A DNA stretch of 40,731 bases from Pseudonocardiales bacterium (GTDB lineage Bacteria; Actinomycetota; Actinomycetes; Mycobacteriales; Pseudonocardiaceae). Shown in pieces: positions 11,317 through 39,401 of this stretch; the stretch's first letter is position 1, and each line of letters begins with the position of its first letter. Below the pieces are notes generated by a model. It was not told the DNA's origin. It saw only the letters and a program-made list of their open reading frames with translations, and made no database searches. Location: the NCBI GenBank assembly GCA_019241525.1, contig JAFAWY010000104.1:1-40731 (forward strand), read 5' to 3'. The position numbers were made by a program, and so were the translations under genes.

Positions 11317-11340
11317 CCCGATATGTCTCCATACCGGGAT
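11317..11340. repeat. Short palindrome CCCGATATG/CATACCGGG, second copy of the element at 4223
   Basis: CCCGATATG at 11317-11325 faces CATACCGGG at 11330-11338 over a 4-nt loop, with one wobble position. It overlaps the stop codon of the emb gene at 11340-11342 on the minus strand, so it would be the first structure in the 3' end of that transcript. It aligns with 4223-4244 at about 19 of 23 positions, also immediately beyond a gene end. No T-tract follows. Confidence 0.6.
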
Positions 11341-14213
11341 TATCGGCGCTGGGATAAGGAGGTGTTTCGGGCACTGGAGAGTTGGACAGCGCCCCAGTCA
11401 ATCTCGGGGTGGCCGGCCAGGCGGGTGGGGATGTCGCGCAGCTCGCCGAAGGGGCGCAGACCCGCGAAGACGCCGCCCTGGCCCTGATCGGTGGCGATCC
11501 CTGAGAGGCGGCCGTGGCGGCGCGGCGCTTCGATCACCACGCGAGGGGTGCTGGCCAGCCCGTCGACGACTTCGACGATGTTGTGCACGCAGGGGAACAG
11601 GAACGCTTGCGGCCAGCTCACCAGCACTGGTCCGTGGCTGTTCAGGTATTGGGTCAACCCGATCACCGAACGCAGCCGGGGTCCGGTGACGGCTAGCCAG
11701 CCGTTCGGGTCGGTGGTCGCGTCGACGGCGTGGACTCGGACTCGGTTTGCGCCGCCTGGTATCTCGCTTGCGTCGATGCCGACGGCGCGCCATGGCCGGT
11801 ATTCCGGTGGGCCGTCCAGCTCGTCCTGATTCGCTTTGACCAGGTCGAACGGGGTGCGCGCGCCAAGCGGGATGACACCGGTGGGTGCCGTGCGGCCGAA
11901 CTCCAGGGACAGCCTGTTGCCCCGGTCGGTGCGGCCGGACACCGATACGGCGACTCCGCTGGCTGGGCCCAGAGCAGGCAGGATGAACCAGGGGCTGGTC
12001 AGTGTGCCGGTGCTGCGCGGGCCATCAGCCAAGCTGCCCCACAGTTGCGCGGACACTCCGGTACCGGGCGCGTCTGGTGGCGGGGCACCCGGGTCGAAAC
12101 CGCCGCCCGCGGTGAATCCGTCCAGATGCCCGGCCGGATCAGCGGGCAGCAGCACGGCGCCGTCGGGAAGCACCTGGATGTCGTCCGCCAACCCGCACGA
12201 GTGAGCGCCCGCCAGTTGATGCAGGTTCGCCAGCGCCAGCGATCCTGCCGGCCGCCGTACCGGTGCGGCGATAAAGGAGCCGAGCAGGACGGTGACTGCG
12301 GTACTCGCCACAGCTATGGCCAGTAGCGCCGGCGCAGCGATGAGTCGCTTGGTAACCAGCACGATGATTGCGGCGGCACCCAGCCACAGCAGCGGGGAGT
12401 CCAGCGGCAGGCCCAGCGGATGTACTGGGCCGTTGGCCCACGGCACGTCGTAGACGGCCGGCTGCCACCAGGAGTTCGGGCCGGCGAAGGCCAGCCCGGC
12501 TGCCCCAGCGACCAGGACGGCACCGGCCACGCTGATCCCCGCGGCGATGCGGTCACCGACCCGCGCGCGGCGCGGTTGCAGCAGCATGACCACGGCGGCC
12601 ACCAGGAACGACGCGATGAGCCCGGCGAGAGCGCCGAAGTGATGTGGCCACTTCGACGGGGTGAGCCACAGTAGCGCGAATGCGGTGGCCACAACGGCTG
12701 CCAGCCGCGCGGCTGCGCGGTCGGTCTCGTCTGACTCGCTCGTGCGGCGGATCAGCAGTAGGGCGCCAACCACCGGCAGAAGGGCCAGGGTGACCAGGAC
12801 CGGAACCCGCTTGGTGGCGGTGCCGTCCTGGTCATCGCCGAGCAGGAACCAGTACCGGTCCGGCTCGTGGTACCAGGGCAGCGACGGGCCGAAGAAGTTG
12901 TGCCAGCGGGTGGCGGTGACCAGCCCCTCCCAGGTCTGGTCAGCAAAGATCACAGTGAGGCCGACGGCGCCGATGCAGCAGAGCAGGAGCACCCGGGCCA
13001 GTACGTCGACTCGCCTGCGTGCCGACGCGCGGAGTATGGCGACGATGCGCGGCGCAAAGATCGTTATCGGGGCGGCGACCAGCAAGCTGCCAGGACTGAC
13101 AGGAAGGGTCAGCCCGGCGACGAGCGCCGCCCAGCCCAGCGCGGCGAGCCCGCGAGCCCGGTAGAGCAGGGCAAGCAGCGTGGTGACGCCGAAGGCGACG
13201 TACGGCTCGGGGCGCACCCCGAGGTTGAACGGCAGCCACGCGCTGAGCAGGCACACCGCGGCCAGCAGCCGGATCCGGACTGTGCTCGCCACCGCAGGCA
13301 GCGCCGCGCCAAGCACGCCGCGGCTGACCACAAACCAGGTGGCGATCCCCAGCACGGTACTGGGCAACCGCAGCCACAGCGGCGCCAAACTGACCTCGGT
13401 CAGCGGTGCCAGCAGTTGCTCGGCCAGCGCGAATGGTGTCTCCGAGGCGTTCCACCAGCGGTAATAGTTGCCGACATTGCCGGTTAGCGCGGCGTTACGA
13501 GCGATCGTGGTCGCGAAGCCGTCGTCGTCGGTCAGCGGACCGATGATCGCCCACCCGGCCAGTGTCGCGACCACGCCGGCGTCGACCCACACCGTATTGC
13601 TCCAGCGGGGGCGGGCACGGAGGCGCGACACACCAGGCACGAGGGCACGACTCGCCGGGAGGCTGCCCAACAGCCAGAGAGCGGCGATCGCGGCGAGCAG
13701 TTGCAGGGCGATGAGCACCAGCTTGAGTGCGCGTGGACTGGTGGCGAAGGGGCTGGCGGTGTGCGCGGTGACGGTCATCCCGGCCGCCTGCGTGGCATCC
13801 AGGTCGGTGCGAAACGCGAACACCTGAGGCACCGGCTCGCCAGCCAAGTCGAGCTGACCAGTCCCGATAGTGATCACGGTTCCGCCTGGGCCGGCGTGCA
13901 ACCGAGTCCGGCAGTCGGCGCTTACCACTGGCGCACTGCTCACCTCGCGCGGGCCCAGCGTCAGGTGGGCCGCACTCCCCTCAGTTCGGAGCACCAGCCC
14001 CTCACCGGGCGGGCCAGTGGCCAGCACGGTGACAGCGTGCATCTGCCCAGCGGCAGCACGCAGCGCTGAGCACGGCACAGTCACGGTCAACTCCGCGGGC
14101 CGGTACGGCGCGAACAACGCGATGGTCGATACGGCCGGCCGGCCTGACGGCGGCCAGATTACGTCGGTCTGCTCGGTGACTACAGGGGCGAATGGCAAGA
14201 CCAGCGCGAGCAC
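11340..14213 (-). CDS. Arabinosyltransferase, Emb family (paralog 1)
   Basis: This is a GT-C membrane arabinosyltransferase of the EmbA/B/C family (GT53), which adds arabinofuranose from decaprenyl-phosphoryl-arabinose to the growing arabinan outside the membrane. The catalytic-loop acidic motif is TDDDGF (Asp229-231), followed by GNVGNYYRWWN. The substrate loop WLPFNLGVRPEPYVAF, IFADQTWEGLVTATR, LTPSKWPHHFGALAG and a C-terminal beta-rich region with SWPQAFLFPC are all family hallmarks. From GTG 14213 it has 957 residues, but the first membrane helix is then cut (MLALVLPFAPVV). The frame continues upstream for 25 codons with a better helix (TLRLLAGFLGVVLALVLPF) without ATG, GTG or TTG; CTG at 14288 follows AAAGG by 7 nt and may be the true start. 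Ile237 sits where EmbB has Met306. Residues 188-203 are encoded by two units of the 22-bp repeat. It lies upstream of dprE1 on the same strand. Confidence 0.88.
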   Translation of the reverse strand: MLALVLPFAPVVTEQTDVIWPPSGRPAVSTIALFAPYRPAELTVTVPCSALRAAAGQMHAVTVLATGPPGEGLVLRTEGSAAHLTLGPREVSSAPVVSADCRTRLHAGPGGTVITIGTGQLDLAGEPVPQVFAFRTDLDATQAAGMTVTAHTASPFATSPRALKLVLIALQLLAAIAALWLLGSLPASRALVPGVSRLRARPRWSNTVWVDAGVVATLAGWAIIGPLTDDDGFATTIARNAALTGNVGNYYRWWNASETPFALAEQLLAPLTEVSLAPLWLRLPSTVLGIATWFVVSRGVLGAALPAVASTVRIRLLAAVCLLSAWLPFNLGVRPEPYVAFGVTTLLALLYRARGLAALGWAALVAGLTLPVSPGSLLVAAPITIFAPRIVAILRASARRRVDVLARVLLLCCIGAVGLTVIFADQTWEGLVTATRWHNFFGPSLPWYHEPDRYWFLLGDDQDGTATKRVPVLVTLALLPVVGALLLIRRTSESDETDRAAARLAAVVATAFALLWLTPSKWPHHFGALAGLIASFLVAAVVMLLQPRRARVGDRIAAGISVAGAVLVAGAAGLAFAGPNSWWQPAVYDVPWANGPVHPLGLPLDSPLLWLGAAAIIVLVTKRLIAAPALLAIAVASTAVTVLLGSFIAAPVRRPAGSLALANLHQLAGAHSCGLADDIQVLPDGAVLLPADPAGHLDGFTAGGGFDPGAPPPDAPGTGVSAQLWGSLADGPRSTGTLTSPWFILPALGPASGVAVSVSGRTDRGNRLSLEFGRTAPTGVIPLGARTPFDLVKANQDELDGPPEYRPWRAVGIDASEIPGGANRVRVHAVDATTDPNGWLAVTGPRLRSVIGLTQYLNSHGPVLVSWPQAFLFPCVHNIVEVVDGLASTPRVVIEAPRRHGRLSGIATDQGQGGVFAGLRPFGELRDIPTRLAGHPEIDWGAVQLSSARNTSLSQRR
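13610..13653 (+). repeat. Two units of the 22-bp CGACAC repeat inside the emb coding sequence
   Basis: Two adjacent 22-bp units end in CGACAC (13626-13631) and CGACTC (13648-13653). Their preceding parts, GGCACGGAGGCG and GGCACGAGGGCA, match the units flanking bpa at 35688-35841 and 36440-36527. They encode SRALVPGVSRLRARPR between two membrane segments of the Emb protein, in the cytoplasmic or loop region before the helix that precedes the DDD motif. Confidence 0.7.
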
Positions 14214-32600: not shown

Positions 32601-33002
32601 GAGCACCATGCCGACCGCGGCCCCGTCCGTCGAGTTGGCCGGGGTGGTGGACAGCAGCGACGCCGGCTGTGTCGAGCGCCCTTCCACCGAGGAGGCTGCG
32701 ACGCAGGGGATCGTTGCGGTCAGGTTCTGCGGCTGGAAAGTGACCAGCGGGGCGTTGACCGGGGCGAGGTGCCTGCCGTTCGGCCAGGTGATCACGGTGG
32801 TGTCCTGGATCACCGGCAGCAGCGGCACGGCGACAGCCAGCAGCGCGCCGAGCAGCCCGAAGACGGTGGCAGCCAACCGGAGCAACCGAGCCCCTCGGGC
32901 TGTCTTAACCCTGCCGGGGTGATCCTCGGTGGCCTGCTCGTCGGCGTCACTGTCAGGGCGCGATGAACGGCGCGTGATCTCGATGTGCCCGGATGTCAGC
33001 AC
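29691..33002 (-). CDS. Arabinosyltransferase, Emb family (paralog 4, most like mycobacterial EmbB/EmbC)
   Basis: This 1103-residue GT-C transferase is closest in length and motifs to mycobacterial EmbA-C. Seen: the first helix (LLRLAATVFGLLGALLAVAV), an N-terminal extracellular domain, the catalytic loop ITSDDGYILTMIRTR (Asp294/295, matching EmbB Asp299/300), GYIGNYYRWFNVPEAPFGWP, WLPYNNGLRLEPVVAI, FADQTLAGVLEATRIRTEIG, LTPTKWTHHFGAFASI and a complete C-terminal carbohydrate-binding region ending SGWWSPGPLRSG. Met301 corresponds to EmbB Met306, the main ethambutol-resistance position. It adds arabinofuranose from decaprenyl-phosphoryl-arabinose to arabinan. The start is GTG 33002, the only candidate before the first helix that leaves a cytoplasmic tail of normal size. 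It lies 63 bp after glfT1 on the same strand, so co-transcription with wzm-wzt-glfT1 is possible. Confidence 0.93.
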   Translation of the reverse strand: MLTSGHIEITRRSSRPDSDADEQATEDHPGRVKTARGARLLRLAATVFGLLGALLAVAVPLLPVIQDTTVITWPNGRHLAPVNAPLVTFQPQNLTATIPCVAASSVEGRSTQPASLLSTTPANSTDGAAVGMVLQVADGKLTLISRGQALGNIMLSAIPAGTDPCLIKVTSSAKGTTASAGATRFVKVTQDVRPQVTGIYSALDERLDPVTGLSVQITPDTRYQSVPHPTKLLAIELAVVAVVISLILVQRLDRRIGRQAPRLLPSGWWRPTGRDATVLAVLAVWVVIGGITSDDGYILTMIRTRAEMGYIGNYYRWFNVPEAPFGWPYELYAYWSQISTTPPWLRLPAFAMGGVSWMLISREVMPRLGREVRRSAAAGWAAAGVFLAFWLPYNNGLRLEPVVAIGSLLVLCAVERAVATRRMLPLLLGLIAAAFTVAATPTGFIAIAPFLVALRPLVQLLRQHAAASGWAAVMGPVLGAGLLVLVVIFADQTLAGVLEATRIRTEIGPNLSWFQEPLRYQWLFSDMPDGALARRFPVLMLLLCLGTSLVVLLRRGGIPGAGLGPSRRLIGTAGTALALLALTPTKWTHHFGAFASIGAALAALTALATSSNVLRSARNRWWFLSGMLVILAMSSTGPNAPWYVSQYGVPWFDKPPSLHGIQASTLLIVGAVLAGFVAVIEGLRHEPGEPPPPLPDRRSGRRALRIASAPIAVFCGLLVLAEVAVMVKAMHKQRDGYSMAAANIAHITGHSCNLTDAVLVEPDRRAGALAPLHGSLLADIPLQRGFELNRFPVKATPATNSGLNPPDRADGQSARGDRLPKPANDSDSFDNPVQAPPSGLGGTEIPIWSSFNPDSAGTGNVRTTWYALPAAAREGRAPVVVSVAGKLSPTTPLFAEFARRTERGFRVLVQTPIGGRATANAPGWRDFRLGVVGRAAGADAVRLIAIDADVTDEGWLAFSAPRVPVLRSLTDLVAPTPPVFLDWPVGFVHPCVRPFGLRNGIAELPKYRLLPDELLTDYSKTWSSRDAGGPIGWLQILATQQEVPTYLKENWDTDWGKLMVIQPRVPDAAAPTLKTGTAVRSGWWSPGPLRSGSQTAAISQLGR

Positions 33003-33065
33003 GCGCAGGAGGCTAGTCCAATGGGACGAGCGCTAGGCGACCTGTCCCGAACATTGACCATAACT

Positions 33066-33977
33066 TTACCTCGGTACGTGGCCGGCCGGGTGCCCTGAGT
33101 ACCGGTAGAACCGCTCCGCGCGGCCTTGCCGCAGCAGCTGCAACCACTGGCGGAATGCTTGGGGGTCGCGTTTGGTGACCAGGAAGTACAGCCCGAAGCG
33201 GAACACCTCGAGCATGCCGATCCGCCGCATCCCTGGCTGGGACAGTAGGTAGCCGCGGTTGCGGTAGGTGTAGTAACGCTTGACGTCGTCGGCGGGGTCC
33301 TGGGCGTGGAAGTGCCCGTGCAGCATCGGCTTGAACTCGGCCGTGCCGTCCGGGTGGGCGTAGGAGGCTCGCAACGTGGTGCCGAACCGCAGCCCGGAGC
33401 GGACTACCCGGCGGTGCACGTCGACCTCGTCACCTCGGACGAACAGGCGGTAATCCGGCACGCCGACGACGTCGAGTGCGTCGGCGGAAAACAGCGCACC
33501 GTTGAAGAAGCTGGCGATGCCGGGCAGGAAATCCGTGCCCAATTCGCTGACCTGGCGTTTCCAGTTCAGTCCCCGGCGCAGCGGGAACGCCAGCCGCTCG
33601 GGATCGTCGATGTTGACCACCACCGGAGAGATCACCGCGAGGTCCCGGCGTTTGGCCTCTTCCAGCAGCGTTTGCAGCACCCGGACGTCGGCGGGGCGCC
33701 CGTCGTCGTCGGCCAGCCACACCCAGTCCGCACCGAGGGCCAAGGCGTGCAGGATGCCCAGCGCGAACCCGCCTGCGCCGCCGAGGTTGCGCTGCGACAG
33801 CAGGTACGTCGACGGGATGGGGCAGTCCTCGACCACGTCCTCGGCCGGATCGTCCGGCCCGTTGTCCACCACCACGAGGTGGTCGGGCAGCCTGGTCTGC
33901 TCTGCGATGACCGCCAACGACTTGGCCAACGACTCCCGGCGGTGCCGGGTCACTACCACCGCGATCACGCGCGTCAT
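33066..33977 (-). CDS. glfT1: Galactofuranosyltransferase GlfT1
   Basis: This 303-residue GT2 enzyme adds the first two galactofuranose residues to the rhamnosyl-GlcNAc linker on decaprenyl diphosphate, priming the galactan that GlfT2 extends. Seen: the nucleotide-binding start VIAVVVTRHRRESLAKSL, VDNGPDD (38-43), QRNLGGAGGFALG (62-74), the metal-binding WLADDDGRP (Asp90-92), FNGALFSADAL and RGDEVDVHRRV, as in Rv3782. It lies in the conserved order wzm-wzt-glfT1 (Rv3783/Rv3781/Rv3782 relatives), 22 bp after wzt, so one operon is likely. The start ATG is just inside the frame and well placed before the first strand. Confidence 0.94.
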   Translation of the reverse strand: MTRVIAVVVTRHRRESLAKSLAVIAEQTRLPDHLVVVDNGPDDPAEDVVEDCPIPSTYLLSQRNLGGAGGFALGILHALALGADWVWLADDDGRPADVRVLQTLLEEAKRRDLAVISPVVVNIDDPERLAFPLRRGLNWKRQVSELGTDFLPGIASFFNGALFSADALDVVGVPDYRLFVRGDEVDVHRRVVRSGLRFGTTLRASYAHPDGTAEFKPMLHGHFHAQDPADDVKRYYTYRNRGYLLSQPGMRRIGMLEVFRFGLYFLVTKRDPQAFRQWLQLLRQGRAERFYRYSGHPAGHVPR

Positions 33978-33999
33978 CGGACGCCGGCCCCCTTCACTG

Positions 34000-34770
34000 T
34001 CACTGGAGGGCTCCCGTGAGGGAGGCCGGGTTTTTGTAATGGGACAAGACGGTCCCGAGACTGCCTTGCTCGCGGATCTCGCCGCGGTCGAGCCATAGCG
34101 CTGAGGTGCACAGTTGAACGAGGAACTCGTCGGAGTGGGACGCGAACACCAAGATCCCGGACCGCTCGACCAGGGCGGTCAGCCGATCCCGGGCCCGTTC
34201 CAGGAATGCCGCGTCCACCGCGCCGATGCCCTCGTCAAGCAGCAGGATCTCCGGGTCGATGCTGGTCACAACACCGAGCGCCAGCCGGACCCGCATGCCG
34301 GTGGAATAGGTACGCAGCGGCATGGACAGGTAGTCGCCGAGCTCGGTGAACTCAGCGATCTCGGCGGTGCGGGCTTCCATCTGCTTGCGGGTCATGCCGA
34401 GGAACAAGCCACGGATGATGATGTTCTCGTAGCCGGAGATCTCCGGGTCCATCCCGACGCCCAGGTCGAATACGGGCGCGACCTTGCCCACGATCTGCGA
34501 GGTCCCCCGGGTCGGCTCGTAGATGCCGGACATCAGGCGCAGCAGCGTCGACTTACCGGCCCCGTTATGCCCGATCAGGCCAACCCGGTCGCCGTGGCGC
34601 AACGACAGGGTGATGTCCCGCAGTGCCTCGACGACGGGCACCCTGGCGTCGGTTCCGATCTTGCCGCCGGCCCGTCCTACGGTGCCCAGCACCGCCTTTT
34701 TCAGTGACCTGGTCTTGGCGTCGAAGATGGGGAATTCAACGCTGGCGCGGCGCACCTCAATGGAGACCAT
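34000..34770 (-). CDS. wzt: ABC transporter ATP-binding protein Wzt (galactan export)
   Basis: This 256-residue ATPase is of the polysaccharide-export ABC class, the relative of Rv3781. Seen: Walker A GHNGAGKST (67-75), Q-loop region APVFDLGVGMDPEISGYENI (98-117), signature YSTGM (155-159), Walker B ILLLDE (175-180) and the H-loop SHS (His212). There is no extra C-terminal sugar-binding domain, as in the mycobacterial protein. With the permease Wzm it is thought to move the lipid-linked galactan to the outside, where the Emb enzymes act. It starts 7 bp after the wzm stop and ends 22 bp before glfT1, consistent with one operon. Confidence 0.93.
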   Translation of the reverse strand: MVSIEVRRASVEFPIFDAKTRSLKKAVLGTVGRAGGKIGTDARVPVVEALRDITLSLRHGDRVGLIGHNGAGKSTLLRLMSGIYEPTRGTSQIVGKVAPVFDLGVGMDPEISGYENIIIRGLFLGMTRKQMEARTAEIAEFTELGDYLSMPLRTYSTGMRVRLALGVVTSIDPEILLLDEGIGAVDAAFLERARDRLTALVERSGILVFASHSDEFLVQLCTSALWLDRGEIREQGSLGTVLSHYKNPASLTGALQ

Positions 34771-34777
34771 GTCGCTA

Positions 34778-35626
34778 TCACACCCAGTACGAGACTCGGG
34801 CCCGGTAATTGCGCAGGACGACCAGCGCTACCGCCCACCCCACCACGGTGATGGCCAGGGTAACCACCCAGTGCCGGATTTCGAAGGACTCGCCGATCAT
34901 CGGCCGGCGCAGGATCTCGACGAAGTGCAGGAATGGGTTGAGCTCGGCCCACTGGGCACGGTGCGCGCCAGGGCCACCCTTTCTGATCAGGTCCTCGTAA
35001 TTCCAGACGATCGGTGTCATGAAGAAGCTCAGCGTGACGATGCTGTTCGTCACCGGCGGGATGTCGCGGTAGCGGGTGGAGATGATCCCGATCAGGATCG
35101 CCACCCAGGCTCCGTTGAGCACGATCACCACCAGGGCCGGGATGGCCAGCAGGCCGGCCCACCCCAGCGCCCGCGGGAAGATCAGTATGAGGGCGACCCA
35201 GACCAGCGCGTTATGCGCGAAAAACAGCAGTTGCCGCCAGACCAGCCGGAAAACGTGCACGCTCAACGGCGCGGGCAGGTGCTTGATCAGTCCCTCGTTT
35301 TTGATGAAGACCTCGGCGCCTTCGTTGATGCAGCTGGACATGAACTGCCAGATGATCAAGCCGACAGCCAGGTAGGGCAGGAAGAACGCGATCGGCTGGT
35401 CGAACAGCGCCGCGTACAGCAGGCCCATGCCCAGCGCCTGCACTCCTAAGCTAATGGTGATCCAGAATGGTCCGATCACCGACCGCCGGTAGCCCTGCTT
35501 GATGTCTTGCAAGCCCAGGTGCCCCCACAGCCTGCGCTGCTGTAGTCCGGCCGCGAGGTCGCCGAACGCCCGCGACCAGCTCCGGGTCGCCGCCGCTCGG
35601 ACCTGGAGCACCTCGGGGGAGGTCAC
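34778..35626 (-). CDS. wzm: ABC transporter permease Wzm (galactan export)
   Basis: This 282-residue ABC-2 type membrane protein is the relative of Rv3783 (about 280 residues). It has a cytoplasmic start (SWSRAFGDLAAGLQQRRLWG), the family region GLQDIKQGYRRSVIGPFWIT, and about six membrane segments including LYAALFDQPIAFFLPYLAVGLIIWQF and VVTLAITVVGWAVALVVL; FIKNEGLIKHLPAPLSVHVFR is typical of O-antigen and teichoic acid exporters. The start is GTG at 35626 with GGGA about 5 nt upstream. The much longer open frame upstream runs through the 22-bp repeat array and into bpa antisense and was rejected. It heads the wzm-wzt-glfT1 unit; the array at 35688-35841 lies directly in its upstream region and could influence its expression. 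Confidence 0.9.
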   Translation of the reverse strand: MTSPEVLQVRAAATRSWSRAFGDLAAGLQQRRLWGHLGLQDIKQGYRRSVIGPFWITISLGVQALGMGLLYAALFDQPIAFFLPYLAVGLIIWQFMSSCINEGAEVFIKNEGLIKHLPAPLSVHVFRLVWRQLLFFAHNALVWVALILIFPRALGWAGLLAIPALVVIVLNGAWVAILIGIISTRYRDIPPVTNSIVTLSFFMTPIVWNYEDLIRKGGPGAHRAQWAELNPFLHFVEILRRPMIGESFEIRHWVVTLAITVVGWAVALVVLRNYRARVSYWV

Positions 35627-35687
35627 CGTGTCCCGCACGAGGTGCGAGGGTACTAGGGCGCAGCTCAGCGCTGTGGCTGACGTGCTG

Positions 35688-35841
35688 ATCAGCTGTGTAG
35701 CCGCGACACGTGGTGCCTGAGGGCGCGACACCCGGCGCGCGGGGACGCGACACAACCTGCGCAGAGGCGCGACACGGCGCGCATGGGTGCACGACATACC
35801 TGGCACGAGAGCCCGACACGGAGTGCACGGGGGCACGACAC
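35688..35841 (+). repeat. Seven-unit array of a degenerate 22-bp repeat ending in CGACAC
   Basis: CGACA(C/T) starts at 35704, 35726, 35748, 35770, 35792, 35814 and 35836, an exact 22-bp period with no exception. Each unit is five variable bases, then GC at positions 6-7, a Y and purine-rich middle (consensus GCRYGRRGGCR), then CGACAC. The array fills the gap between wzm (start 35626) and the bpa stop (35865). The same unit occurs inverted at 36440-36527 and in the emb gene at 13610-13653. It does not encode a repeat protein that fits any gene here. Confidence 0.9.
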
Positions 35842-35864
35842 GCCGGGCTGCGACGGGCGCTGGT

Positions 35865-36410
35865 TTAGAGGTACTGGCCGGTGCTGGGGCCTCGGGCTCC
35901 GGGATCCCCCTGGGGACCGGGGACCATGCCGGGTGGCATCGCGCCGGCGGGCAGTCCACGGCGCATTTGCTCCAGCTGCACCCGGGCAGCCATCTGCTGG
36001 GCGAACAGCGCGGTCTGGATGCCGTGGAACAGTCCCTCCAGCCAGCCCACCAGCTGGGCTTGCGCGATGCGCAACTCGGCGTCGCTGGGCGTGGCGTCCT
36101 CGCTAAACGGCAGCGATAACCGCTCCAGCTCGTCACGTAGCTCGGGGGCCAGACCCTGCTCCAGCTCGCGGATCGAGGACTCGTGGATTTCCCGCAGCCG
36201 GCTGCGGCTGGCGTCATCCAACGGCGCTGCGCGCACCTCTTCCAGCAGCTGCTTGATCATGCTGCCGATCCGCATCACCTTGGCGGGTTGCTCGACCTGG
36301 TCAGCGACCTCCATGCCGCGCTGATCGGTGGTGTTGCCGGCTATCGTGGCCTGCACCGGGCGGCCATCCGGCCCAACCACGACGATCTGCTGCTCATTCG
36401 GTTCGCTCAT
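35865..36410 (-). CDS. bpa: Bacterial proteasome activator Bpa (PafE)
   Basis: This 181-residue protein is the ATP-independent ring activator of the 20S proteasome (Rv3780 relative, 178 residues). A disordered acidic start is followed by the four-helix core: VEQPAKVMRIGSMIKQLLEEVRAAPLDDASRSRLREIHESSIRELEQGLAPELRDELERLSLPFSEDATPSDAELRIAQAQLVGWLEGLFHGIQTALFAQQMAARVQLEQMRRGLP in outline, and the C-terminal GQYL, the HbYX-like tail that docks in the proteasome alpha ring. It lets the proteasome degrade unfolded proteins such as HspR without ATP. The start at 36410 gives MSEPNEQQ; two ATGs nine and twelve bases earlier (36419, 36422) are alternatives. It is flanked on both sides by inverted arrays of the 22-bp repeat, so its promoter must lie inside or next to the upstream array. 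In mycobacteria it also adjoins the wzt-glfT1-wzm genes. Confidence 0.95.
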   Translation of the reverse strand: MSEPNEQQIVVVGPDGRPVQATIAGNTTDQRGMEVADQVEQPAKVMRIGSMIKQLLEEVRAAPLDDASRSRLREIHESSIRELEQGLAPELRDELERLSLPFSEDATPSDAELRIAQAQLVGWLEGLFHGIQTALFAQQMAARVQLEQMRRGLPAGAMPPGMVPGPQGDPGARGPSTGQYL

Positions 36411-36439
36411 AAACCCCATCATCCGCCCCCCATCCTGGC

Positions 36440-36527
36440 GTGTCGCGCGCTTATGCGCTGCGTGTCGCGCCTCCATGCCCACTGTGTCGCTGCTTGGTGC
36501 CGGCTATGTCGCGTGTGCCGCGCTCTC
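36440..36527 (-). repeat. Four-unit array of the 22-bp CGACAC repeat, inverted, upstream of bpa
   Basis: On the plus strand (G/A)TGTCG starts at 36440, 36462, 36484 and 36506, again exactly 22 bp apart. Read on the minus strand the units match those of 35688-35841 (for example GGGCATGGAGGCG then CGACAC). The array occupies most of the 126-bp gap between the bpa start and the quinone oxidoreductase stop, leaving 18-30 bp before the bpa start codons. Confidence 0.88.
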
Positions 36528-36536
36528 AGCGCCCGC

Positions 36537-37511
36537 TCATCCGCCGGTGGTCAGCAGGATCTTGCCGAACACCCCACCCTCCTCGAGCATCCGGTGCGCC
36601 CGTGCTGCCTGCGCCAACGGCAGGGTTGCGTGCACCACCGGCTTAACCCGGCCGTCGCCGAACATCGGCCACACCCGGGCCACAACGTCGGCGCACAGGG
36701 CAGCCTTTCCGTGCGGGCCATCCACCGGTCGCCCGCGCAGCCCGATGGCCGCGATGCTGGCCCGCTTGGGCAGCAGCGCACCGAGATCGATCTCCGCTTT
36801 AGTCCCGCCTTGCAGGCCGATCACCACCAGCCGTCCATCCGGGGCGAGTGCGGTGAGGTTGCGCGCAAGGTATTTCGCCCCCATGTTGTCGAGGATGACA
36901 TCGGCGCGGCCGCGCAACTCGTCGGCGAAGTCCTGGGTGCGATAGTCAATCAAAATCTGGGCGCCCAGCTCACCGCAGCGGGCCAGTCGCGGACCTGCTG
37001 CCGTGGTCGCTACCGAAGCGCCCAGCGCCCGGCCCACCTGGATGGCATGCGTGCCGATACCCCCAGACCCACCGTGCACGAGCAGCAGTTCACCTGCAGA
37101 CAGCCTCGCGTGGCGCACCACCGTCGACCACACGGTGCAGGCCACCTCGGGCACGCCGCCGGCGGTCACCACATCCACTCGCGGTGGCAGCGGCATCACC
37201 TGCCCGGCAGGCACCGCGACCCGCTCGGCGTAGCCGCCGCCGGCCAGCAGCGCGCACACCTGATCGCCCACTTCTAACCCGGTCACCCCGTCGCCGAGCT
37301 CCGCCACCCTGCCGGCACATTCCAGTCCCGGGATTTCGCTAGTGCCGGGGGGTGCGTGGTAGCGACCTTGGCGTTGCAGCAGGTCCGCCCGGTTCACCGA
37401 GGTCGCGGCGACGTCAATCAGCACTTCCCCGGCCCCGGGAGTGGGATCGGGTTGCTCGGTCAGCACCAAGGCGTCCGGTCCGCCGTACTCCGTAATGGAA
37501 ATCGCGCGCAC
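36537..37511 (-). CDS. NAD(P)H quinone oxidoreductase, zinc-independent MDR family (PIG3/Qor-like)
   Basis: This 324-residue medium-chain reductase has a GroES-like N-terminal domain (SVNRADLLQRQGRYHAPPGTSEIPGLECAGRV) and a Rossmann domain with HGGSGGIGTHAIQVG (146-160), the PIG3/quinone reductase pattern; zinc-binding Cys/His residues of alcohol dehydrogenases are absent. It reduces quinones or enones with NADPH in the cytoplasm. Rv3777, an oxidoreductase of the same type, lies near bpa in M. tuberculosis, so the neighbourhood is conserved. The start GTG 37511 has AGGA close upstream. An ATG at 37544 would overlap the divergent GNAT start and adds only non-conserved residues. The gene ends next to the inverted 22-bp repeat array. 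Confidence 0.88.
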   Translation of the reverse strand: MRAISITEYGGPDALVLTEQPDPTPGAGEVLIDVAATSVNRADLLQRQGRYHAPPGTSEIPGLECAGRVAELGDGVTGLEVGDQVCALLAGGGYAERVAVPAGQVMPLPPRVDVVTAGGVPEVACTVWSTVVRHARLSAGELLLVHGGSGGIGTHAIQVGRALGASVATTAAGPRLARCGELGAQILIDYRTQDFADELRGRADVILDNMGAKYLARNLTALAPDGRLVVIGLQGGTKAEIDLGALLPKRASIAAIGLRGRPVDGPHGKAALCADVVARVWPMFGDGRVKPVVHATLPLAQAARAHRMLEEGGVFGKILLTTGG

Positions 37512-37542
37512 GATTCCTGACCGTAGTCGTAGCGTTTCGGCC

Positions 37543-38211
37543 ATGCCCCCGGTCCCGGAGGAAACGCAGCCACCGAACGACCCCTGGCCGTTGCGGCACC
37601 TGGCGCTACGTACCCCCCGCCTCACGCTGCGCCCGGATGACGACGAGGGCCTTTACGAGCTCGCGGCGGTGGCGGTGCGCGGCATCCACCCGCCGGAGCA
37701 GATGCCCTTCGCGCAACCCTGGACCGATCAGACCCCGGGTGACCTGGTGCGCGGCGTCCTGCAGCACAACTGGGCTCGGCGTTCCCAGCTGAGCCCGTCG
37801 GGATGGAAAATCAACTTCCTCGTGCGCCACGGTGGAGCGGTGATCGGCGTGCAGGAGTTGGCGGGACAGGATTTCGCCGTCACTCGAGAGGTTTCGACGG
37901 CTTCCTGGCTGGGCATGGAGCACCAGCGCCGGGGATTCGGCACCGAGATGCGCGCCGCCGTCTTGCTCCTGGCCTTCGATCACCTCGGCGCCACCAGCGC
38001 ACGCTCGGCTGCGTACTCCGATAACTCAGCGTCGCTGCGGCTGAGTGAGAGGCTGGGCTACCGGCCCGACGGCACTGCCACGTTTGCCCGCCGGGGGGCC
38101 GTAGCCACCGAGAGCCGGTTGCTGGTGACCGACCAGCAGTTCATCCGTCCACCATGGACCCTTGGAGTGGACGGGCTCGATGGCTGCCGCGAGATACTGG
38201 GTGCTGTCTAG
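37543..38211 (+). CDS. GNAT-family N-acetyltransferase (RimJ/RimL-like)
   Basis: This 222-residue acetyltransferase contains LRTPRLTLRPDDDEGLYELA at the start, a central GGAVIGVQELAGQDFAVTREV sheet, the acetyl-CoA-binding loop SWLGMEHQRRGFGTEMRAAV (Q/RxxGxG/A in the form QRRGFG) and the C-terminal SARSAAYSDNSASLRLSERLGYRPDG, the RimJ/RimL type seen in ribosomal-protein or small-molecule acetyltransferases. The substrate cannot be told from the sequence. It is divergent from the quinone oxidoreductase with only about 31 bp between the starts and has no ribosome site, so a leaderless transcript is possible. The next gene begins 11 bp downstream, so an operon with the FMN enzyme is likely. Confidence 0.85.
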   Translation: MPPVPEETQPPNDPWPLRHLALRTPRLTLRPDDDEGLYELAAVAVRGIHPPEQMPFAQPWTDQTPGDLVRGVLQHNWARRSQLSPSGWKINFLVRHGGAVIGVQELAGQDFAVTREVSTASWLGMEHQRRGFGTEMRAAVLLLAFDHLGATSARSAAYSDNSASLRLSERLGYRPDGTATFARRGAVATESRLLVTDQQFIRPPWTLGVDGLDGCREILGAV

Positions 38212-38222
38212 GGTGCCTGCTT

Positions 38223-39401
38223 ATGGCGCACTTCGGTGATCTGACGCACGATATCTACCAGCGGGGACTCGCCGGCCATCGGCCAGACCTCCCGATGACG
38301 GCCGACGAGCTGGAGGTCGCGGCGCGCCGCGTACTGCCGGCCGAGACGTTCAGTTATGTGGCCGGTGGGGCGTCCACCGAGCGCACCATCGCCGCGAACC
38401 GGGAGGCATTCGCCCGCTGGCGGATCGTGCCGCGGATGCTGCGGAGCGTCACCGAACGTGATCTGTCGACGACCGTGCTGGACACGCCGATGACGGCACC
38501 TGTGTTCACCGCCCCGGTCGGGGTATTGGGTCTGGTGCATCCGGAGGCCGACTTTGCGGTGGCTCGCGCCGCTGCGGGACTGGGGTTGGTCAGCATGTTG
38601 TCCACCGCGTCGTCGGCTTCGCTGGAGGACGTCGCGGCCGCGACGCCGGATGCGCCGCGCTGGTTCCAGCTGTACTGGCCACGCGATCCGCAGCTGGCCG
38701 AGTCTCTGGTTCGCCGCGCTGACGCGGCCGGCTACCGGGCGATTGTGGTGACCGTGGACACCTGGACGCTGGGCTGGCGGCCACGGGATCTGGCGTTGGC
38801 GCACCTGCCGTTCCTGCAACGCAAAGGCATCGCCAACTACCTGTCCGATCCGGTGTTCCAGGCCCGGCTCAGCGCGTCACCCGAAGGATCCGAGCAGGCC
38901 ATGCAGGCCGCTATCCGCCTCTGGACGGAGCTGTTCGGCAATCCGGTGCTGAGCTGGTCAGACCTCGCCCTGCTGCGGGAGTGGACCCGGCTGCCGGTGC
39001 TGGTCAAGGGGATCTGCCATCCGGATGATGCGCGGGTCGCGCTCGACCATGGTGCCGACGGGCTGGTGGTGTCCAATCACGGTGGTCGGCAGGTCGACGG
39101 GTCCCGGGCAACGCTGGATTGCCTGCCCGGTGTGGTAGCCGCCGCCGATGGCCGGGCCCCAGTGTTGCTCGACTCCGGGATCCGGTGCGGCGCTGACGTG
39201 CTGATCGCGCTGGCGCTGGGTGCGCAGGCGGTGCTCGTGGGGCGACCGTGGATTTACGGTCTGGGGTTGGCCGGGCAACGGGGGGTGGAGCATGCGCTGC
39301 GCGTGATCCTCGCCGACTTTGATCTCACGCTGGCGCTGGCCGGTTACTCCAGGCCGTCAGATCTGAGCGCGGACAGCGTCGTCCGGGAATCGACCGGCTA
39401 A
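38223..39401 (+). CDS. FMN-dependent alpha-hydroxy acid oxidase, lactate 2-monooxygenase-like
   Basis: This 392-residue flavoenzyme of the glycolate oxidase/lactate dehydrogenase family oxidises 2-hydroxy acids to 2-keto acids or, in the lactate monooxygenase branch, lactate to acetate and CO2. Seen: FSYVAGGAS (Tyr45), TAPVGVLGLVHPEADFAVARAA, STASSASLEDVAAA, WFQLYWPRD, the FMN Lys262 in LVKGICHPDDA, catalytic His286 and Arg289 in SNHGGRQVDG, DSGIRCGADVLIALALGA and GRPWIYGL. WRPRDLALAHLPFLQRKGIANYLSDPVF is the loop typical of lactate 2-monooxygenases, favouring that substrate. The start ATG has AGGG about 10 nt upstream, within 11 bp of the GNAT stop. Nothing essential is missing. Confidence 0.9.
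   Translation: MAHFGDLTHDIYQRGLAGHRPDLPMTADELEVAARRVLPAETFSYVAGGASTERTIAANREAFARWRIVPRMLRSVTERDLSTTVLDTPMTAPVFTAPVGVLGLVHPEADFAVARAAAGLGLVSMLSTASSASLEDVAAATPDAPRWFQLYWPRDPQLAESLVRRADAAGYRAIVVTVDTWTLGWRPRDLALAHLPFLQRKGIANYLSDPVFQARLSASPEGSEQAMQAAIRLWTELFGNPVLSWSDLALLREWTRLPVLVKGICHPDDARVALDHGADGLVVSNHGGRQVDGSRATLDCLPGVVAAADGRAPVLLDSGIRCGADVLIALALGAQAVLVGRPWIYGLGLAGQRGVEHALRVILADFDLTLALAGYSRPSDLSADSVVRESTG

Follow-up and report, generated by a model that had tools for sequence, protein, structure and literature searches.

Polar 22-bp repeat arrays at gene borders in some Pseudonocardiaceae: a candidate gene-boundary element

Why does a run of short repeats with an exact 22-bp period stand directly behind bpa, the gene for the bacterial proteasome activator, in a Pseudonocardiales bacterium? 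The question arises from a 40,731-nt stretch of DNA (contig JAFAWY010000104.1, assembly GCA_019241525.1; hereafter the window), in which seven six-base cores, CGACAC in six cases and CGACAT in one, start at 35704, 35726, 35748, 35770, 35792, 35814 and 35836. A sequence-only reading of the window had listed these seven starts at a strict 22-bp spacing, which we confirmed at every coordinate, and had assigned the array to the promoter region of the galactan exporter gene wzm, an assignment that is not supported. Our best explanation, which we put forward tentatively, is that such an array may be a polar gene-boundary element made of a few to about a dozen putative binding sites, arranged head to tail and two helical turns apart.

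The array (array 1, 35704..35841, CGACAC on the plus strand) reads GTGTCG-N16 in the sense of the bpa mRNA. The window contains six copies of the pair CGACAC-N16-CGACAC where 0.01 are expected (none of 100 shuffles reached six), and a fuller pattern with at most three mismatches gave 10 matches against 0.27 expected. The 13 units counted in the sequence-only reading are accounted for by the seven of array 1, four in a second array (array 2, 36440..36511, minus strand; 22-bp-spaced, three CGACAC and one CGACAT) and a lone pair of units at 13626-13652 that falls within a predicted coding gene (11340-14213, minus strand). As that reading had also held, array 1 is not a CRISPR: its units are 22 bp long, their 16 non-core positions are consensus-like as well, and there are no unique spacers.

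The genome scan that the sequence-only reading had suggested showed that the 22-bp spacing recurs at other loci. The genome that holds the window (G000; 4.7 Mb in 148 contigs) contains 117 core pairs at this spacing (58 + 59), compared with 5 (1 + 4) for the reversed pattern. On the CGACAC strand the unit follows the consensus R-C-C-G-G-G-C-A-C-G-A-G-G-G-C-R-CGACAC with little T, in which the core is given by the search itself. Steps beyond the seed pairs at the array ends in five genome groups fell at 22 bp in 254 cases, at 21 bp in 17 and at other lags (14 to 30) in 8. Since stretches entered the set through an exact 22-bp pair, this count is partly conditioned; the 22-bp step is a strong preference and not an absolute rule. 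Ahead of the first core, most of the signal is confined to the six bases next to it, whereas past the last core the signal, though lower than within the array, persists to about +10. Because of this persistence the arrays do not delimit the putative binding site, and the idea that their ends mark out a box of about 14 bp was dropped.

Adjacent units in G000 are hardly more alike than units from different loci (56 and 53% identity, respectively); these arrays therefore look old rather than freshly slipped, which agrees with the view of the sequence-only reading that array 1 is not a random minisatellite. The congeneric genome G009 has values of 79 and 58%, which points to homogenisation in the recent past. 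A further carrier has extended stretches of almost identical 22-bp units at contig ends (G306:C10, 166242-166489; G306:C13, 2-359), stretches that probably caused the assembly to break there. The sense strand of the arrays is nearly free of A in G000 and G009 (2-3% A). A G-quadruplex reading was rejected, four GGG runs being present in only 3 of the 35 G000 arrays.

To describe placement we used 166 arrays of at least three cores (G000, 35; G009, 22; G028, 32; G306, 30; G135, 30; two named Saccharothrix, 17), after leaving out arrays in called genes (2), arrays at stretch edges (5) and duplicates (3). The 24 arrays of G133 were counted apart, and G025, G307, Haloechinothrix, Kibdelosporangium, Rhodococcus and the G245, G336 and G017 loci stand outside this set. 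Because array-bearing stretches were picked by the pattern, the counts describe sampled arrays and not genome-wide rates; only spaced stretches of G133 and one contig of the congener G007 were chosen independently of arrays. Genes were called with our own gene finder, trained on codon-position GC, and are not curated annotation; the stop-facing counts of G000 and G009 were the same with an earlier gene finder.

The nearest gene lies on the GTGTCG side in 151 of the 166 arrays (binomial p = 2 × 10−29), and in unpaired arrays within co-directional gaps this side faces a stop codon in 44 of 56 cases (p = 2 × 10−5), both p-values assuming independent arrays, which paired arms and G000/G009 orthologs are not. 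Group median distances to the gene range from 8 to 65 bp on the GTGTCG side, compared with 117 to 334 bp on the other side. In the Saccharothrix-type genome G135, 22 of 23 stop-facing arrays start no more than 9 bp from the stop codon. Divergent gaps hold 6 of the 166 arrays; in G000 they hold 2 of 35, although they make up 24% of the intergenic bases (p = 0.009). Start codons are faced by 33 of the 166 arrays, 17 of which are members of inverted pairs. Close inverted pairs have the order GTGTCG then CGACAC throughout in G000 (5/5), G009 (3/3), G028 (6/6) and Saccharothrix (9/9). As a check on the gene calls, 24 of the 34 array-facing genes listed were compared with Pfam, and 22 had a domain; many are metabolic, and some can be named from their domain as proB-, glnA-, prs-, hisA- or coaX-like.

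In the window itself, bpa (35865..36422, minus strand; PF10759, 2.2e-79) is fenced by arrays on both sides, each with its GTGTCG side turned towards the gene. A C-rich leader of 23 nt (35842..35864, minus strand) separates the bpa stop codon from array 1, and array 2 is 17 bp away from the bpa start and 25 bp from the stop of the upstream gene, a zinc-binding dehydrogenase family gene (quinone-oxidoreductase-like; 36537..37511, minus strand). The next gene downstream of bpa, the wzm of the sequence-only reading, encodes an ABC-2 type transporter membrane protein (34778..35638, minus strand), and its called start is 65 bp past the far end of array 1. No intrinsic terminator (hairpin plus T-run) was found in 35400-36700, and the Rfam 15 covariance models gave no match at E up to 1 in 33000-38500.

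The arrays are distributed patchily. More than 20 core pairs were present in 5 of 100 genomes (G000 itself, G009, G028, G031 and G048), and 9 of 10 other genomes of the genus were at background. A scan of 297 genomes of the family (three cores, CAACAC allowed, one mismatch) gave a match in 80 and at least 20 matches in 17, and the high-count genomes often have congeners at zero. In a scan of 200 genomes of the order, the 171 from outside the family all had at most two matches. Named carriers among the GTDB matches listed, many others of which look like unrelated repeats, are Saccharothrix, Kutzneria viridogrisea, Amycolatopsis antarctica, Haloechinothrix, Kibdelosporangium and Rhodococcus rhodnii. 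Plasmids gave no match for one Saccharothrix array, and phages gave none for array 1.

Three further genomes, G245 (L255, L259, L263), G336 (L257, L261, L265) and G017 (L256, L260, L264), carry 22-bp arrays with CAACTC, CGACTC or GAACTC cores that were read by eye in the same register; the first two were noticed through an excess of the reversed control pattern in the family scan and the third in the 100-genome scan. Because these cores differ in the same register, the core seems to drift between lineages while the 22-bp period stays. In Saccharothrix (L048, L071, L086, L107, L118, L141), the unit before the first CGACAC, at the gene-distal end, often carries GAATTC or GAACTC where the core would be. 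The CAACAC arrays of G133 (L195-L206) are paired in inverted orientation; in 8 of 10 pairs the arms are 25-35 bp apart and their order is opposite to that of the other genomes. Arrays of an 11-bp unit, CGACACYTATG, were seen at several places in one Dehalococcoidia genome (OY282365.1; L055, L056, L079, L080, L092, L123).

For 14 of the 22 G009 arrays, G000 has an array within 250 bp of the orthologous place; one place has aligned flanks and no array, and for the remaining 7 no flank was found among the G000 stretches compared. These stretches are 86.6-90.5% identical, and the recognised core number mostly differs. The sequence-only reading had named free change of copy number, together with other spacings elsewhere, as the mark of a neutral minisatellite; copy number does differ between species, but the 22-bp spacing holds elsewhere too. 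It had also looked to close relatives for an array at bpa. G009 carries both arrays (with spacings of 22, 21, 21, 22 and 20 at the 3′ array, by eye), and G002, a congener otherwise at background, retains one two-core remnant before bpa (L152, 1505-1531; 3 mismatches, 0.01 expected), but in ten array-bearing genomes from other genera bpa is in no case followed by one. At several of these ten loci a hairpin-like structure was seen by eye after the stop codon, an anecdotal observation. The congener G007 showed no 22-bp signal in 60 3′-end gaps (200 kb, one contig). Between genera, arrays face both members of 2 out of 61 ortholog pairs; by our own arithmetic about 1.3 would be expected, which puts the sharing at chance level. 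Because G009 and G000 share sites and sharing with other genera is at chance, arrays are inherited within the genus and were probably gained separately, or turned over fast, between genera.

How could such an array act? Sites with the core CGACAC/GTGTCG closely border a gene and present their GTGTCG side to it, a DNA-binding protein would cover them as a head-to-tail multimer, and the bound multimer might pause or stop RNA polymerase leaving the gene. Its targets would be read-through at the 3′ end and antisense transcripts at the 5′ end. Each half of this idea has a precedent: BldC forms cooperative head-to-tail multimers on direct repeats (PMC5859096), and, in the sections of the paper covered here, H-NS filaments prolong pauses and aid Rho-dependent termination (PMC4337669). 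The spacing supports the suggestion of the sequence-only reading that the phased array may resemble a set of protein-binding sites. An action on DNA is favoured because the units are two turns apart, folding gives no signal, paired arms show no clear co-evolution and arrays face start codons too. The first 40 unpaired arrays folded no more readily than shuffled sequence (mean z −0.52 sense, −0.25 antisense), and in the largest set of paired arms (17 pairs) mirrored units were 0.741 identical compared with 0.728 between loci. Hairpin terminators were disfavoured on the lack of clear arm co-evolution and because G000 has 5 close pairs beside its 35 arrays of at least three cores. The idea that arrays replace hairpin terminators holds in G028, where hairpins occur at 1 of 24 array-bearing ends and 16 of 51 others, and fails in the pooled genomes. 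We consider a broader proposal unlikely in its full extent: in some Pseudonocardiaceae the borders of genes may be marked by polar 22-bp arrays under a coat of protein, a sequence-specific fence that admits RNA polymerase, blocks its exit and so guards against read-through and antisense transcription, with the core (CGACAC, CAACAC, CAACTC, CGACTC or GAACTC) drifting between lineages together with the binding protein.

Several observations weigh against a boundary element. In G133, with its CAACAC core, the GTGTCG side is the one nearer to the gene in only 7 of 24 arrays and the close inverted pairs have the opposite order in 8 of 10, and in G025 the pairs are mixed (3 and 2); four clear arrays in the spaced stretches of G133 do obey the orientation rule, as called with the earlier gene finder, which is prone to strand miscalls in GC-rich genomes. 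In the smaller sets of paired arms, mirrored units are somewhat more alike than those of other loci (G000, 0.602 vs. 0.529, 11 units; G028, 0.656 vs. 0.583, 14 units; G306, 0.701 vs. 0.671, 9 units). Hairpins at array-bearing 3′ ends show no overall deficit (24/152 vs. 66/315 elsewhere, p = 0.21). By our own reasoning, a roadblock has little space where the cores are 5-9 bp past a stop codon, because a polymerase stalled there would leave an mRNA without its stop. Finally, most relatives have no arrays, which are thus not essential.

Among the competing explanations, an old repeat expansion without function deserves the most attention, although we hold it to be rather unlikely. The arrays would then be a minisatellite family that survived best outside genes, with its polarity produced by a transcription-coupled or replication-slippage bias. 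This would suit the patchy distribution inside genera, the copy numbers that vary between species, the homogenised arrays of G009, the long near-identical runs of G306, and the lack both of position sharing across genera beyond chance and of an array after bpa in the ten carriers from other genera. In the sections covered, the authors who studied similarly placed repeats in Xanthomonas and Nostoc were likewise unable to identify a role in gene regulation (PMC4692102). The strong polarity speaks against such an origin, as do the G000 units, which are nearly as diverged within arrays as between loci yet keep a common consensus and the 22-bp spacing, both of which free decay would erode. A functional form at the RNA level appears more doubtful still: repeated GUGUCG in the 3′ untranslated region of an mRNA would be bound by an RNA-binding protein or a nuclease that sets its stability or 3′ end. 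The sense orientation, the closeness to stop codons and the nearly A-free sense strand of G000 and G009 would fit. However, 33 of the 166 arrays face start codons, 17 of them within inverted pairs, the 22/21-bp spacing suits DNA turns and has no obvious RNA reason, and G133 mostly reads the opposite strand.

A Rho-dependent terminator, with the C-rich leader as rut site and the array as a part of it, is improbable. Post-stop leaders are 53-55% C at array-bearing ends in G000 and G009, compared with 32-38% at ends without an array, but the G000 arrays themselves contain about as much C as G (36 and 35%, respectively), and in G028 both leader and array sense strands are G-rich, which removes the rut site as a general explanation. 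Rho is not known to require a conserved six-base core, which also counts against this model. The C-rich leader may help Rho in the genus of G000, not generally. We give least credence to regulation of the wzm promoter by array 1 as an iteron-like element or operator. It is true that the array lies between bpa and wzm and shortly before the called wzm start, but its gene-facing side is 23 bp from the bpa stop, and this reading is disfavoured because the same placement recurs after unrelated genes of many kinds. There was also no match to a sigma-70-type promoter in 35400-36700, which is weak evidence because other promoter types were not covered. Replication iterons, which would lie beside a rep gene or origin, were rejected as well, the arrays being dispersed over many contigs after unrelated genes.

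The same-side polarity makes the array a directly testable candidate boundary signal, and carriers and non-carriers inside one genus offer natural controls. How transcripts end in actinobacteria is poorly understood, and in this genus few of the 3′ ends without arrays have a recognisable hairpin (G000, 21/137, shuffled 6%; G007, 6/65, shuffled 8%). In mycobacteria, a related family, the MIRU are oriented tandem intergenic repeats near stop codons with a unit of about 50-100 bp. We found no description of such 22-bp repeats in the literature searched, which largely excludes subscription journals, and the passages covered of the K. albida genome paper mention none.

The following comparisons rest on the covered sections of the cited papers. 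The BldC operators of Streptomyces (PMC5859096) resemble the arrays in their variable number of head-to-tail direct repeats, but they consist of AATTXXXX(C) in promoters, whereas the arrays described here are GC-rich 22-bp units with a CGACAC core at gene ends. REP and BIME elements (PMC3733652) are also short extragenic repeats, numerous in some genomes, with a hypothesised role in termination or mRNA stability; REPs, however, are palindromes, whereas inspection of the 22-bp consensus showed no evident inverted repeat within the unit and the fold z is −0.52. The Y1 (RAYT) transposase family (PF01797) was present in 1 of 14 genomes (G133) and absent from G000, G009, G028, G306 and G135, and RAYT mobility was rejected because the tested carriers other than G133 have no such transposase. 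The array core contains the GACAC of WhiA sites (PMC3781837), a sequence match only: the WhiA targets described precede genes and have no constant orientation, 22-bp arrays are not mentioned among them, and some genomes here have CAACAC or CAACTC cores. The TAACTGA direct repeats of Beggiatoaceae (PMC4679880) likewise form many intergenic sets (169 in one genome) and are patchy across taxa, but these heptamers stand mostly just before start codons and are proposed to act in translation.

The closest likeness is to the heptamers GGGAATC and GGGGA(C/T)T of Xanthomonas and Nostoc (PMC4692102), which lie preferentially within 50 bp of a stop codon on the sense strand or upstream of an open reading frame on the antisense strand. 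Polar placement outside genes of this kind was found here in 151 of 166 arrays, but in only 7 of 24 in G133. Both kinds of repeat are rare between divergent genes, have no functional theme and vary in length between species at shared loci, and transcript starts or ends in Xanthomonas are more frequent at repeats able to form a quadruplex than at control repeats. The heptamers differ in being G-rich 7-nt units with a G-quadruplex and a preference for four units, and those of Nostoc prefer the non-coding strand, whereas the arrays described here have 22-bp units with a fixed core. The rule of placing repeats at gene ends is thus known, and what is new here is a quite different unit; that Xanthomonas and Nostoc follow a very similar rule hints at a cross-phylum principle.
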